Shown here: positions 3,055 through 24,529 of the stretch, piece by piece
How positions within the stretch are numbered: position 1 is the first letter of the stretch
Layout of the letters: every line of letters begins with the position of its first letter
Origin: a virus
Length of the DNA: 57,321 nt
IMG/VR virus record: IMGVR_UViG_3300037502_001747
Coordinates: 1 to 57,321 of that record
Reading direction: 5' to 3' (one strand)
Position numbers and translations under genes: made by a program
Notes under the pieces: generated by a model
Told to the model about the DNA's origin: nothing
What the model saw: only the letters and a program-made list of their open reading frames with translations
Databases searched by the model: none

Positions 3055-3337
3055 GTATCCACTCCCTTACTTGCTCAATGGTTGTCTTGTCATAGACCAC
3101 GAAGCATTTGCCTCCGGCCTTCTCGATGTCCGCCATGCACTTGATCTGCAGGGCAGTGGGCTTCTTAGTGGCATCTGCTTTACACTCGATGCCCACGAAC
3201 AAACCTTCCACGACCGCAACTCGGTCTGGAATACCAGCCCCACCAAATGGTCCGGCCTGCGGGGGGTAAAACCACACCCGCTCGGCCTTCAACATTCTAT
3301 CGAGGGCAGCCTTCACTTTGCTCTCGGGGGTCGCCAT
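3008..3337 (-). CDS. VRR-NUC domain nuclease, 109 aa
   Basis: A single-domain protein of the length usual for phage stand-alone VRR-NUC enzymes. It shows GGAGIPDRVAVV, then FVGIECKADA with the catalytic-type E-x-K, then TALQ, in the order of the PD-(D/E)XK core. Such proteins cut branched DNA in phage replication and recombination. I chose ATG 3337 because the open frame upstream of it is arginine-rich shadow of the neighbouring gene. It lies between the Cas4-like nuclease and the SNF2 helicase, an arrangement common in phage replication cassettes. Confidence 0.9.
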   Translation of the reverse strand: MATPESKVKAALDRMLKAERVWFYPPQAGPFGGAGIPDRVAVVEGLFVGIECKADATKKPTALQIKCMADIEKAGGKCFVVYDKTTIEQVREWIHARRAGGEGSRPQAE

Positions 3338-3339
3338 GG

Positions 3340-4011
3340 TCAAGCGGCAAATTCGCAGAAGCCCTTGCAGGGGCAGAACTTGCACAGCCCGCTCGGCTTG
3401 GCGGGCCAGTTGTCTGTCTCCACTGACTTCTCCACTCGGTGGATGCGGGTCAGCAGCCGGGTCCACATGTCGTCGAGGTGCTCCCGCTTGTACGTCTCCT
3501 TGTCGGTGGCGTTCTCCTTGGTCCACACAAACATGGATGACACACGGTCGGCCGAGGGCCAGAAGCTGAACACCGCAAGGGCGAACATCTCCAGCTGATC
3601 GAAGTCGGGGCGGCGCTTGCCTGTCTTCCAGTCGATCACGATGGCCCTGCCGTTGGGGCGGATAGCCAGCACGTCCAGCTTGAAGCGCAGCCATGCGTCC
3701 GGTGCGAACCACGACGTGGGCTTGAGGTCACTGGTCAGGGTGTACTCCTGCTCGACGAGCAGCATCCCGCCACCCTTGGCGTTTTCGATCACCGTGTCGC
3801 ACAGCGGCTTGAGTGCAGCGGTCTCCTCCGGCAGGCCAGTGGCCGGAGCCTTGAGGTATTCTTCTAGCTGCTTGTGCACCCGCTCACCGTAGACCGTGGC
3901 CGTGCCCGGCTGGTCCTGCACCTCCTTGGTGACACGCTGGTGGTAGTACCTCTTGGGGCAGTTCTCGTACATCTTGAGGGCAGTGTACGAGTGGGCCAGC
4001 TTAACAGTCAT
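3340..4011 (-). CDS. Cas4/RecB-like PD-(D/E)XK nuclease with four-cysteine cluster
   Basis: About 223 residues. An early cysteine (CPKRYYH, near residue 18), a central nuclease core (…FKLDVLAI… followed by IVIDWKTGK, the D and D-x-K active-site pair) and three clustered C-terminal cysteines (CKFCPCKGFCEF) fit the Fe-S-bearing Cas4/AddB type of exonuclease. It most likely processes DNA ends in replication or recombination together with the polymerase and helicase next to it. ATG 4011 overlaps the polymerase stop (TGATG); a GTG at 4014 is the alternative start. Confidence 0.9.
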   Translation of the reverse strand: MTVKLAHSYTALKMYENCPKRYYHQRVTKEVQDQPGTATVYGERVHKQLEEYLKAPATGLPEETAALKPLCDTVIENAKGGGMLLVEQEYTLTSDLKPTSWFAPDAWLRFKLDVLAIRPNGRAIVIDWKTGKRRPDFDQLEMFALAVFSFWPSADRVSSMFVWTKENATDKETYKREHLDDMWTRLLTRIHRVEKSVETDNWPAKPSGLCKFCPCKGFCEFAA

Positions 4012-20229: not shown

Positions 20230-20736
20230 ATGCCACCCACAGCCGCACTTAGTCCATTTTCCGTAGAGGAACTTCGGGCCGTCTTTACACTAGACGCCGA
20301 ACGCGGGGTTTTGTACCGCGTCTCCACTGGCAAGCCAGCCGCGGTAAAGTGGAAACGCAACTGGGGTAAACTGCGGGGCTGGGTTGTTGTGAAGGACCGG
20401 CGCGAGGTCGCCGTACATAGGGTCATCTGGGCGTTATATTACGGCAGTTGGCCAGAGCAAAGTGTGGACCACATAGATGGTGATACAGAGAATAATAGGA
20501 TAGCTAACCTCCGTGATGTGAGCGTAGCTACAAACTCTCGTAACACGAAGAAGTACGGCAACAATACATCCGGGTATATAGGGGTGACGCGTACTGCGTC
20601 GGGGAGGTGGCAGGCTAGGATCGGCTATAACATGGGTAGAATCTGCCTAGGTAGTTTCGACACGGCCGAAGAGGCTTACGCAGCGTATAGAAAAAAGGCT
20701 GCAGAGCTAGGGTTTCACGACAACCACGGTCGCTAA
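20230..20736 (+). CDS. HNH-AP2 homing-type endonuclease, 168 aa
   Basis: The HNH core is VHRVIW … VDHIDGDTENNRIANL (residues ~70-110), with the typical His, Asp-His and Asn. It is followed by an AP2-type DNA-binding module (GYIGVTRTASGRWQARIGY … LGSFDTAEEAYAAYRKKA). This is the layout of free-standing phage HNH-AP2 homing endonucleases. GAGG lies seven bases before ATG 20230. It is the first gene of the rightward arm, just ahead of terS, and is clearly related to the HNH gene on the other side of terS. Confidence 0.93.
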   Translation: MPPTAALSPFSVEELRAVFTLDAERGVLYRVSTGKPAAVKWKRNWGKLRGWVVVKDRREVAVHRVIWALYYGSWPEQSVDHIDGDTENNRIANLRDVSVATNSRNTKKYGNNTSGYIGVTRTASGRWQARIGYNMGRICLGSFDTAEEAYAAYRKKAAELGFHDNHGR

Positions 20737-20780: not shown

Positions 20781-21257
20781 ATGTACATCAGCCCCGTCCA
20801 AACCAAGTGGAACGACCGGTTCGCGTTTGACCTCGCCCTTTTGCTGGAAGGGAGCGGGGAGAAGATCGACGAACTGCTGGATCGGCACGAATTCGACGCC
20901 TCCGATCTGCTGACGTTCAACAAGGACACCCTGTTCCACAAGAAAGTCGAGGCTTACCGGGAAGAAGTACGCACCAAGGGCCTGACATTCCGGGTCAAGG
21001 CGCGTGCGCAGGCTGAAGAACTGCTCAAAACCTCATGGTTGCTCATCCACGACCCCGTGGTTAGCCCTGCGGTGAAGGCCGATCTCATCAAATCTGTCGT
21101 ACGCTGGGCCGGTTTAGAGACGCCGCCGAAGGAGGAGGGCATTGGGGGTGCCGGAGGTGTGACGATTACCATCAACCTTGGGGGCAGGCAGTTGGATGTG
21201 ACAGCGAAACCCGCCCCTCTTGAGTTGAACGGCGCGGACTACTCGGAGGTCGAGTGA
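20781..21257 (+). CDS. Probable terminase small subunit, ~158 aa
   Basis: The helical protein (KWNDRFAFDLALLLEGSGEK … LFHKKVEAYREEVRTKGLTF … KARAQAEELLKTSW … VKADLIKSVVRWAGLE) matches the pattern of podovirus small terminase subunits that recognise the packaging site, and it lies upstream of TerL. The start is uncertain: ATG 20781 has no good ribosome site, and a TTG at 20745 would add 12 residues. The inserted HNH gene upstream may have replaced the native leader. The 3' end overlaps the convergent HNH gene by 19 bases. Confidence 0.75.
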   Translation: MYISPVQTKWNDRFAFDLALLLEGSGEKIDELLDRHEFDASDLLTFNKDTLFHKKVEAYREEVRTKGLTFRVKARAQAEELLKTSWLLIHDPVVSPAVKADLIKSVVRWAGLETPPKEEGIGGAGGVTITINLGGRQLDVTAKPAPLELNGADYSEVE

Positions 21258-21811
21258 TTTTTTCTCCCGTGGTTAGGGTGATAGTCGAGCGCAACCTCTG
21301 CAGCTCTACGCGCGGCCACGGCTTCCGCCATAGTATCGAATGTGCCGAGCTGTATCAGCTTACCAGAGTCGGATATCCGTGCCCTCCACCTGCCGTTGCG
21401 CAGGCTCACGCCTAGCACTGCGTCAGATTTGTTGCCCCTAGTAGCCACATTTTTGGCGTTTTCGCCTCGCGACACACTTCGGAGGTTGCACAGGCGGTTG
21501 TCAGCCCGATCACCGTTGATGTGGTCGACAAAATCCGGGTCTTCGCCGTGTACCAGCTTCCATATGAGCCTGTGGACCTTATAGGTGTTGCCCATTATGC
21601 GAGCGCAGAGGTACCCCTCATCACTGAGCGACCCGACAGTGGTGTCTGCAAACCGCTTGTTCCACCATTTCTGCTGCCATTCACGGGTACGCGCAGCGGT
21701 GGGTACAAATTCCTCCAGCGATCTGTGGTTCCACAGCACCGTACCCGTTTCTTGGTTGTACCGGAGCAGTTTTTGTAGCACTATTTGCTCTGGGAGCGCG
21801 GTAATCTTCAT
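21239..21811 (-). CDS. HNH-AP2 homing-type endonuclease, 190 aa, opposite strand
   Basis: The HNH core VHRLIWKLVHGEDPDFVDHI and NGDRADNRLCNLRSV is followed by an AP2-like module (VLGVSLRNGRWRARISDSGK … LGTFDTMAEAVAARRAAE) and a C-terminal HPNHGR nearly identical to HDNHGR of the HNH gene at 20230. ATG 21811 has a perfect AGGAGG site five bases upstream; ATG 21835 is less likely. It runs against the structural genes and ends inside the 3' end of terS, so it is a recent-looking insertion carrying its own expression signals. Confidence 0.93.
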   Translation of the reverse strand: MKITALPEQIVLQKLLRYNQETGTVLWNHRSLEEFVPTAARTREWQQKWWNKRFADTTVGSLSDEGYLCARIMGNTYKVHRLIWKLVHGEDPDFVDHINGDRADNRLCNLRSVSRGENAKNVATRGNKSDAVLGVSLRNGRWRARISDSGKLIQLGTFDTMAEAVAARRAAEVALDYHPNHGRKNHSTSE

Positions 21812-21834
21812 GATGACCTCCTTGAATGAGCTCA

Positions 21835-21863
21835 ACCGTAGCCCAAGGTAGCTTTGATGTCAA
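21835..21863 (-). promoter_or_regulatory. Candidate promoter of the antisense HNH-AP2 gene
   Basis: Minus-strand TTGACA (21858-21863) is followed by a 17-base spacer and TACGGT (21835-21840). It would start transcription just ahead of the AGGAGG site, making the gene independent of the rightward operon. Confidence 0.4.
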
Positions 21864-22015
21864 CGATGAAACCTAAAGTTCACCTGTTCCACAGCCTGTT
21901 TGCGGCGCAGGCGTTCATCGCCACCCAGAAAGCCGCCCAAAAGTCCTATCGCGCCCTGCGCATACCCCGCCCGAAGCGCGGAAAACCCCTCTACACGGTG
22001 GTTGTCTATGGCTGA
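21857..22015 (+). CDS. Small basic protein, 52 aa
   Basis: Read from sequence: ATG 21857 (or 21866) to TGA 22015. The product has a helix (HLFHSLFAAQAFIATQKAAQ) and a basic Pro-rich end (IPRPKRGKPLYTVVVYG). The start overlaps the -35 region of the antisense HNH promoter. It overlaps the next gene by eight bases. No family recognised. Confidence 0.5.
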   Translation: MSTMKPKVHLFHSLFAAQAFIATQKAAQKSYRALRIPRPKRGKPLYTVVVYG

Positions 22016-22250
22016 GATCAAGAAGTTCTACCCGAAAGACGCTGCCAAGGACGCTGACAACGTTCTGGAGCAGGCGCTGGGGGTCTACGACGACGTCTTG
22101 CTTATTGGGTGGAACAAGGACGGCAACATGGAGGCCCGAGCGACCCTCGGGCTGAAAGACGGCGGCGATTGCCTTTGGCTGATCGAGAAGTTTAAGCACA
22201 ATCTGCTGGACGGGCGGTACTTGCCGCCTGAAATGCAAGAGGACGAGTGA
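22008..22250 (+). CDS. Hypothetical protein, 80 aa, upstream of TerL
   Basis: ATG 22008 begins MAEIKKFYPKDAAKDADNVL; the open frame before it is arginine/proline-rich shadow. The product is small and alpha/beta (VYDDVLLIGWNKDGNMEARA, CLWLIEKFKHNLL), a pattern seen in short phage proteins of unknown function. Its stop overlaps the TerL ATG by one base. Confidence 0.65.
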   Translation: MAEIKKFYPKDAAKDADNVLEQALGVYDDVLLIGWNKDGNMEARATLGLKDGGDCLWLIEKFKHNLLDGRYLPPEMQEDE

Positions 22251-24529
22251 TGGCCCTCGACATCTCCTACACTCCGACCCCCACGGTCGCGAAATTCATG
22301 GATTCCAACGCCAAGATGCGCGTGATCATGGGTCCTGTCGGGTGCGTTGCACCCGAGACGCTGGTCCTTACGGAGTATGGTCCGCTTCCCATCGCGCGTA
22401 TAGATCGTCCAATGCGCGTTGTATCGTGGAACGAGAAGACATCTCGATTCCAGCTTTCTTGGTGTGGTGGAGCGTTCCCGAAAGGTACGGACTATCTATA
22501 CCGAGTGACAACGCGGCAAGGAGAATTTGCCGCAAACGAACATCACCTCGTGCTCGACGGGCAGCGTGCATATCGACGCGCTCGATCTCTGCGCCAAGGT
22601 CAGTCCTTATCCCAGTGTTCTGACGTCCGCGCGTTGATACGTTCGGCCCCCGACCTGCCAGTGTCGCATGAAGGTGATCCTGATTTGATCGGAACAGCCG
22701 TAGATTCTCTGGCGCATTATGCAGCGTCAGCCCGTCAATATGGTCTACGACTTCTGCGGGAAGAAGGTATCGACCAAGAGTTTGCCCCATCACAAGACGG
22801 TGCTCGTAGATCAGCTTACCGGTTCGGTTCGTACGCTGCCGGGCGTATGGATGGTCTTGTGGCGCAGTTACGAGCACGTACCCGTCTTGGTCTATCCTCC
22901 GCCCTGACGCGAATTGGTGATTTGCTCGGCCGGGTTGGGCACCTTCTGCTCGCCTTGGAAGGTCGAGTCGCAGCATCACCTTACGCACATAGCGGGGGGA
23001 CAGCCCCACTAGGGCTGCTATCTCCGCAGAAGTCTTCAGGCCGTCGGCCAACGCCACGATCTGTTTCGTATTCTCGTTCCACTCTCGGGGCATGTAACAT
23101 ATCCTCCAATGCCAACGGGGCCATATTGAAGGTAGAGCGCGAGACTGTCAAGCGGTCTTATTGGGACATGCAAGTACTTGATACAAACAACTACGTGACA
23201 GTGGACGGCACTATCCACCATAACAGCGGTAAGTCCGTGGCGTGCTGTTTCGAGATTGTCCGGCGGGCTGCCCAGCAGAAACCGAACGAGCAGGGCGTGC
23301 GCAAGACCCGCTGCGCTGTGGTTCGTGAGACCGTGCGCCAACTCTCGGATACCACGATCAAGACCTTCCTCGACTGGTTCCCTCCGGGGGTCTGCGGCCA
23401 CTTCATGCGCACCACCAAGACCTATTTCTTCAAGGTCGGGGATGTGGAGTGCGAGATTATGTTCCGCGCGCTGGACGACGCGGACGACGTGGCCAACCTG
23501 AACTCTCTCGAACTGACCTTCGCGTGGTTTAACGAATGCCGGGACATTCACCCCGACATCGTGGACGCGATGTCTAAGCGGGTCGGCCGATTCCCCTCCG
23601 CCAAGGATGGCGGGGCGACGTGGCATGGGATGTGGGCGGATACCAACCCGCCCACCATGGATACGTGGTGGTTCTACCAGATGGAACACATCGACCCCAA
23701 GGACGGGGTCAGCCCCAACAACAACGGGTGGGATGTCTTCAAGCAACCGTCAGGACGGAGCCCATATGCAGAGAACATCGAGAACCTACCGGAGGGATAC
23801 TATGACACCCAAGGTCGCTCGGAGGAGTACATCCGGGTTTTCATCGACGGTGACTACGGACTCTCCCTCGCAGGTACGCCGGTGTTCAAATACTTCCGCC
23901 CGGATTACCACATGGCACGTGCCACCCTTCGACCCATTATCAACGGCACTCGGCCTGTCATCGTTGGTATGGACCTTGGTCTCACGCCTGCGGCTGTGAT
24001 CGGGCAGCAGGACCCGAGGGGGCGGGCGCTCGTCATGGCGGAGGCCGTCAGCTACGACATGGGGGTGCAACGCTTCGTCAGGACGGTGCTCAAGCCCCTG
24101 CTCTTCGAACGCTTCGCGGGGGCGCCGGTCATCGTGGTGGTCGACCCGGCGGGTATCCAGAGGGCGCAGACAGACGAGCGCAGTGCGGTCGACATCATCA
24201 AGGCCGAGGGGTTCAGGGTCATGCCAGCCCGGACCAACAGCATCACGGCGCGCATCGCCGCCGTAGACGACTACCTCATGCGGCAGGTGGACGGTGACCC
24301 GGGGTTCCTAGTCGACCCCAGCTGCACGAGACTTAAAGCCGCCATGATGGGTGGGTACCGGTTTAAGAAGAATGGCGATGGGTTGGAGAAGGGTGGAGAC
24401 GCAGGTAAGCACAGCCACATCGGGGACGCCATCAGTTACCTCTGCCTGCACATTGGTAGTCTCGACAGTGGCGCGTTGATGCACCAACGCAGGGAGGTTA
24501 AGCGCATTGACTCCAAGGGGTGGACGTGA
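22250..24529 (+). CDS. terL: Terminase large subunit interrupted by an intein
   Basis: Precursor of 759 residues (ATG 22250; GTG 22247 also possible); removal of the 294-residue intein leaves about 465. Joined exteins give a P-loop MGPVG/SGKS. Downstream are a Walker B-like FAWFNECRD with Asn in place of the usual Asp, and a nuclease domain with IVGMDLGLTP and HIGDAISYL supplying catalytic Asp residues. TerL drives ATP-dependent genome packaging and cleaves the concatemer. Without splicing the P-loop is broken, so packaging depends on intein activity. A terminator follows at 24580. Confidence 0.95.
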   Translation: MALDISYTPTPTVAKFMDSNAKMRVIMGPVGCVAPETLVLTEYGPLPIARIDRPMRVVSWNEKTSRFQLSWCGGAFPKGTDYLYRVTTRQGEFAANEHHLVLDGQRAYRRARSLRQGQSLSQCSDVRALIRSAPDLPVSHEGDPDLIGTAVDSLAHYAASARQYGLRLLREEGIDQEFAPSQDGARRSAYRFGSYAAGRMDGLVAQLRARTRLGLSSALTRIGDLLGRVGHLLLALEGRVAASPYAHSGGTAPLGLLSPQKSSGRRPTPRSVSYSRSTLGACNISSNANGAILKVERETVKRSYWDMQVLDTNNYVTVDGTIHHNSGKSVACCFEIVRRAAQQKPNEQGVRKTRCAVVRETVRQLSDTTIKTFLDWFPPGVCGHFMRTTKTYFFKVGDVECEIMFRALDDADDVANLNSLELTFAWFNECRDIHPDIVDAMSKRVGRFPSAKDGGATWHGMWADTNPPTMDTWWFYQMEHIDPKDGVSPNNNGWDVFKQPSGRSPYAENIENLPEGYYDTQGRSEEYIRVFIDGDYGLSLAGTPVFKYFRPDYHMARATLRPIINGTRPVIVGMDLGLTPAAVIGQQDPRGRALVMAEAVSYDMGVQRFVRTVLKPLLFERFAGAPVIVVVDPAGIQRAQTDERSAVDIIKAEGFRVMPARTNSITARIAAVDDYLMRQVDGDPGFLVDPSCTRLKAAMMGGYRFKKNGDGLEKGGDAGKHSHIGDAISYLCLHIGSLDSGALMHQRREVKRIDSKGWT
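22368..23093 (-). CDS. HTH-HNH homing endonuclease encoded antisense inside the intein, 241 aa
   Basis: An N-terminal HTH (KQIVALADGLKTSAEIAALV, SPRYVRKVMLRL) is followed by an HNH_3-type core: GKLIYEHRLVMGQTLGRYL, VVDHIDGLTLHNAPENLRLF, with His, Asp-His and Asn in place. ATG 23093 has GGAGG nine bases upstream on the minus strand (23103-23107), and a TTGACA promoter candidate precedes it. The gene lies wholly within the intein and its C-terminal codons overlap the intein N-terminal blocks. It is not read as part of the TerL polypeptide. It probably cuts the intein-less terL gene to drive homing. Confidence 0.9.
   Translation of the reverse strand: MPREWNENTKQIVALADGLKTSAEIAALVGLSPRYVRKVMLRLDLPRRAEGAQPGRANHQFASGRRIDQDGYVLVTAPQDHPYARQRTNRTGKLIYEHRLVMGQTLGRYLLPAEVVDHIDGLTLHNAPENLRLFRSNQDHLHATLAGRGPNVSTRGRQNTGIRTDLGAEIERVDMHAARRARGDVRLRQILLAALSLGIDSPYLSGTLHHTKKAGIEMSSRSTIQRALDDLYARWEADHTP
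23123..23151 (-). promoter_or_regulatory. Candidate promoter of the intein-nested antisense HNH gene
   Basis: Minus-strand TTGACA (23146-23151), 17-base spacer, CAATAT (23123-23128) within an AT-rich TTCAATAT. It lies inside codons of the intein C-terminal half and just ahead of the GGAGG site. Confidence 0.45.

Follow-up and report, generated by a model that had tools for sequence, protein, structure and literature searches.

In the viral record IMGVR_UViG_3300037502_001747 of IMG/VR, positions 1 to 57,321 of which were analyzed and are called the window here (57,321 nucleotides in all), the gene for the terminase large subunit, terL, carries a predicted intein in its Walker A motif, and the strand opposite to this intein encodes a protein with a helix-turn-helix (HTH) and an HNH domain. 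With a probability of roughly 0.87, we conclude that the insert is a mobile intein which, instead of being fused to its homing endonuclease, has the gene for it antisense, in an overlapping frame, within the contiguous intein. TerL would then be translated together with the intein, the HINT domain would excise itself and restore the Walker A motif, and the reverse strand would be translated separately into the HTH-HNH endonuclease. This enzyme would cut terL alleles that have no intein, at the codons for Walker A, and repair from the intein-bearing allele would copy the intein and the HNH gene as one block. Read in reverse, the C-terminal codons of HNH give the N-terminal splicing blocks, and the remaining gene gives a linker predicted to be disordered, the only duty of which in the sense frame would be to contain no stop.

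The terL insert and its opposite strand

The terL gene occupies positions 22247..24529 (+) and forms a single open frame of 760 aa including the intein. Its product matches TIGR01547 at 1.5e-9, and the C-extein matches phage TerL proteins in tblastn, e.g. that of Rollin (44%). The N-extein (22247..22342, +) ends with ...MGPVG, the first half of the Walker A motif, and the intein-less terL alleles L320-L322 read an unbroken GPVGSGKS at this place. The contiguous insert (22343..23224, +; 294 aa) starts with C1, ends with HHN and is followed by Ser at +1, giving GPVG/C...HHN/SGKS with the putative splice junctions marked by slashes. C1, HHN, N283 and G289 are invariant in 47 intein relatives, the +1 residue being S, T or C. 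The Pfam Intein_splicing match of the sense frame is weak for the window (0.0026), and 38 of the 47 relatives match, the best at 3e-9. In the AlphaFold model of the intein, the predicted local distance difference test (pLDDT) score reaches 90-98 in the splicing blocks but stays under 50 across most of residues 153-251. Foldseek assigned this model to the HINT fold, with DnaB, DnaE and RecA mini-inteins as matches (E to 4.9e-7, probability 1.00, TMt 0.74-0.86). A search of solved structures by sequence returned weak intein matches and, for the HNH protein, an HTH match only. Judged by motifs and predicted fold, the insert is a HINT intein that would be expected to splice.

The N-terminal splicing blocks (intein aa 1-95; 22343..22627, +) have lowered synonymous differences in both frames, and opposite to aa 9-95 lies the coding region for the C-terminal part of HNH. 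The linker of the sense frame (aa 96-250; 22628..23092, +) is the HNH gene read in reverse; it is mostly disordered by prediction and has no Pfam domain. The C-terminal splicing blocks (aa 251-294; 23093..23224, +) lie outside the HNH overlap and have an ordinary coding pattern.

The gene on the opposite strand (22368..23093, -) encodes 241 aa with an N-terminal HTH, an HNH_3 core at residues 97-138 and a conserved helical C-terminal domain. It overlaps intein residues 9-251 in a phase in which position 2 of the intein frame faces HNH codon position 3. Besides an HTH match, the protein has a Pfam HNH_3 match above the gathering cutoff (E=9.2e-6), and it matches phrog_10730, a family labelled 'HNH endonuclease', from position 14 to position 232 out of 234 (9.8e-57). 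Residues H98, D117, H118, H125, N126 and N130 are invariant in 22 diverse members. A Shine-Dalgarno (SD) sequence, GGAGG (23103..23107, -), stands 9 bases upstream of the HNH ATG. Throughout the family, an SD was found at the usual distance before 68 of 82 ATG starts compared with 9.1% of control positions, and under a stricter rule before 60 of 82 compared with 3.7%. An earlier note, made from the letters of the window alone, had described an intein open in the terL frame and devoid of a sense-strand endonuclease, as well as the antisense gene with its GGAGG and with 3' codons overlapping the N-terminal splicing blocks. It was right on each of these points.

Several other architectures were rejected. 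A split intein or fractured gene is ruled out by the single 760-aa frame of the host gene, and a sense-strand endonuclease hidden in the linker by the lack of a Pfam match and the predicted disorder. A group I intron was likewise ruled out, since an Rfam scan of 22000-23600 gave no intron family. Canonically, the endonuclease of an intein is fused in frame to the splicing domain; here it was found on the opposite strand.

Conservation of the nesting and constraint in both frames

A tblastn search with the TerL-intein as query recovered this intein from Pseudoalteromonas phage PHS3 and from eight Pectobacterium/Dickeya phages with other terminases. In PHS3, Ymer and Sabo it carries an antisense HNH open reading frame (ORF) of 232-236 aa, and in the other six phages HNH and intein match opposite strands. 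Scans of viral contigs yielded 255-287 HNH relatives each, of which the best 80 of each scan were combined and deduplicated; the E-values of these scans for related loci hold relative to the candidate stretches only, and searches keyed to motifs may overlook decayed or reorganised members. Among 110 distinct TerL inteins of the family that were examined, 102 have a near-full HNH, always antisense and in one phase, which is the nesting that the earlier note had proposed to look for in homologues. No full-length HNH relative in sense orientation or free-standing was present among those found, and actinobacteriophage records gave no near-full match to the window HNH.

Prophages in isolates bear the element as well, namely in E. 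coli MEI003 (L406:1516-3921, -) and in Enterobacter cloacae DSM 26481 (L166). The terL of E. coli MEI003 is an intact 801-aa frame with intein, which RefSeq lists as a pseudogene lacking its N-terminus. In this strain and in phage PHS3, independent annotators had already called HNH as a coding sequence of its own, and terL is called truncated in both, its N-terminus missing and the reverse gene annotated instead.

The intein frame of the 102 near-full members contains no stop at all, where synonymous resampling of the HNH codons predicted 678 (6.65 per element). For the window HNH, resampling produced on average about 5.4 stops in the intein-frame strand and left it without any stop in 0.1-0.2% of cases. 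Of 60 other HNH genes from the superfamily, only 5 had an open matching frame, and these five were further inteins (L249, L251, L260), a methylase insert (L289) and a 57-aa fragment (L240). The codon usage of HNH is restricted accordingly: Phe never precedes I, M, T, N or K (0/353 compared with 70.8 expected) and Ile before codons starting with A is ATA in 128/128, because the alternatives would create a stop in terL.

The proportions of synonymous (pS) and non-synonymous (pN) differences were measured in both frames over 217 pairs of relatives. In the HNH frame, pS was 0.12-0.25 at intein residues 9-68, 0.51 at residues 96-180 and 0.69 at residues 181-250, with 0.70-0.74 at aa 189-248. In the sense frame, pS within the overlap was 0.24 (residues 9-95) and 0.15 (residues 96-250), compared with 0.61-0.73 beyond it (residues 1-8, residues 251-294 with 0.61 for the C-terminal blocks, and the C-extein). 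Over the linker, the sense-frame pN of 0.32 exceeded the pS of 0.15. Because of this pattern across both frames we conclude that the splicing blocks are truly double-coded, and that the linker is under protein-level constraint in the HNH frame only, its sense reading being a disordered passenger that is merely stop-free. The earlier note had held that both proteins constrain the same bases and had suggested comparing synonymous sites in both frames. The comparison upholds this claim for the stretch that HNH shares with the splicing blocks, with low pS in both frames, and limits it in the linker to the HNH frame.

We reject the explanation that the antisense ORF is not a gene and arose by chance from intein conservation in GC-rich DNA, in which long antisense ORFs are common. 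It is hardly conceivable, as it is contradicted by the stop resampling, the synonymous rates and the SDs, which are enriched ahead of the HNH starts. The ORF has a conserved HNH motif, an HTH and a C-terminal domain, the conservation of the linker sits in the HNH frame and not in the sense frame, and mini-inteins without HNH are also without linker. In addition, the same ORF pair occurs in phages whose sequences are quite dissimilar, for instance PHS3.

Empty alleles, decayed copies and probable mobility

Apart from the missing intein, the terL alleles L320-L322 encode TerL protein that is 99-100% identical to that of the window, and in total 78 empty GPxGSGKS sites were found. At the insertion site (22342..23235; the bases flanking the intein from -1 to +11), 7 of 12 positions differ from the near-identical empty alleles, all of them synonymously, and the terL sequence surrounding this patch differs at roughly 2-3%. 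The junction patch is thus co-conversion-like, as would be expected from homing. Across all families, the Ser codon of the insertion site is AGY in 25 of 51 occupied compared with 7 of 78 empty sites, a moderate excess that is less telling than the comparison of close pairs. Between the window and Ymer or PHS3, HNH is 45-50% and the intein 46-51% identical, and the C-exteins have no BLAST match. This patchy spread over unrelated terminases fits mobility.

That all 102 distinct full-length relatives found are antisense, in the same intein family and in one phase, that HNH and intein move together between unalignable terminases, and that comparison with the empty alleles reveals clustered changes where the intein is inserted makes it unlikely that a free-standing phage HNH gene landed by chance in the intein linker. 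Under this alternative there would be no homing into terL and the pair would not be a functional unit; it draws on the fact that HNH genes of the superfamily are often free-standing, with generic relatives in many phages, and that two other free-standing HNH genes are situated near terL in the window.

Degraded HNH next to an intact intein was encountered in 8 of the 110 inteins. Shortened copies keeping the intein frame are present in L146, L159, L161, L162 and L247, L157 has an in-frame stop, and the loss of HNH is near-complete or complete in L158 and L163. The linker is missing from the mini-inteins L158, L161 and L163. An intact HNH with a broken intein did not occur among the 110. By the earlier note, relatives with a broken antisense frame beside an intact intein would refute its interpretation. 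Such copies exist, and the interpretation is still supported, as decay of HNH with retention of the intein is what a homing cycle predicts, because the endonuclease is dispensable once the element is fixed and the intein is not.

It is very unlikely that HNH or its antisense transcript now serves to regulate TerL, or HNH as a packaging nuclease, after co-option from a role in homing. HNH proteins do assist terminases in packaging in some phages (PMC11855218), and an antisense transcript across terL could repress terL. This role is at odds with near-identical phages that are without the whole element, with the degraded HNH copies and with the patchy distribution mentioned above.

The interpretation as a homing intein with an antisense endonuclease has to be weighed against several points. 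We infer splicing, cleavage of empty terL, antisense transcription and homing alike, and the target specificity of HNH is assumed from the insertion site. Most member sequences are metagenomic contigs, and about one quarter of the members are without a clear SD or have an ambiguous start. A promoter scan near the HNH start of the window, on either strand, detected no sigma-70-like promoter. The top PDB match of the predicted HNH structure, which was built from scan loci only, is the homing endonuclease I-HmuI, and this match is weak (E=0.06, probability 0.92). Furthermore, other nucleotide-level constraint could account for part of the synonymous-site conservation.

Two more HNH_3 genes flank the terminase region, at 21239-21835 (-) and 20230-20736 (+), and one of them has a weak AP2 match. 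The alignment to the intein-less L320 skips window positions 21215-21865, approximately the span of the first of these genes, which the intein-less L321 retains. This HNH gene and the intein therefore segregate independently.

Further cases, known systems and significance

Antisense HNH genes were also found in inteins beyond the TerL Walker A family. Inteins in the Walker A motif of clamp-loader ATPases (L238:2506-4353, -, and L249:1616-3451, -) carry antisense HNH genes distantly related to the TerL-intein HNH, and L251 is a divergent TerL intein with antisense HNH. In L260 (2344-4728, -), a TerL intein sits at the Walker B site (LIC/C...VNKN/CFDE), and the HNH on the opposite strand has a different domain order. 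All four share the antisense phase of the TerL Walker A family. On resampling, the frame was stop-free in none of 3000 cases for L249 and L260, in 0.13% for L238 and in 0.07% for L251. The DNA methylase of L289 (2809-5403, -; HNH 3249-3749, +) was not counted as a further case, its in-frame insert being without intein motifs and its chance openness 14%. On balance, it is probable that homing inteins with a reverse-strand endonuclease form a widespread class, so far unrecognised, that double-codes DNA in opposite directions. The arrangement would have originated or spread repeatedly, at the Walker A motifs of TerL and of clamp loaders and at the TerL Walker B site, each time with one and the same antisense phase.

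The element resembles the canonical large inteins of the PI-SceI and PI-PfuI type in that a HINT domain interrupts a conserved motif of an essential ATPase and in having a linked endonuclease, empty alleles and mini-inteins. All intein homing endonuclease domains have been described as sitting at one highly conserved insertion site (PMC6801210). Here, in contrast, a gene on the opposite strand, which overlaps the splicing blocks, encodes the endonuclease as a polypeptide of its own. A 'hidden' out-of-frame HNH has been reported in the ShiLan domain of a phage DNA methylase (Arsenault, Gosselin and Gogarten 2025, PMC11855218). It shares with the present case an HNH gene within a host gene, a host frame that is stop-free through the insert and the nature of a homing element, but it has neither splicing domain nor SD, whereas the terL element is antisense, lies inside an intein and possesses both. 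Antisense homing endonuclease genes are also known from group I introns, e.g. Didymium L2066 (PMC9548176), where the gene likewise lies opposite to the host-gene strand inside a self-splicing element. That element, however, is RNA and its loop need not be translated, so that there is no two-frame protein coding; in the terL insert no ribozyme was found. Dassa et al. reportedly described, in 2009, split inteins in 'fractured genes' with the endonuclease between the intein halves. There the endonuclease is a separate ORF as well, but the present intein is contiguous and in one frame. The record of phrog_10730, which the window HNH matches near full length, is silent on intein nesting. In the open literature, no earlier description of a contiguous intein with an antisense endonuclease was found; Dassa 2009, Gorbalenya 1998 and a 2025 preprint on non-canonical actinobacteriophage inteins (10.1101/2025.01.02.630785) are outside that scope.

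If our interpretation is true, mobile inteins do not require an in-frame endonuclease, and the splicing domain can bear the gene of a separate enzyme in reverse. This would also explain the annotation errors in PHS3 and E. coli MEI003. Since HNH overlaps the splicing blocks, its loss or removal by recombination may be more difficult. Expression of the endonuclease would be separated from that of the host protein, which raises the question of how antisense endonuclease genes are transcribed in phages. The family would then also be a very clear case of antisense overlapping genes, with 102 distinct full copies and with mini-inteins and empty sites as built-in controls, and would offer natural two-frame proteins for the study of overlapping codes.
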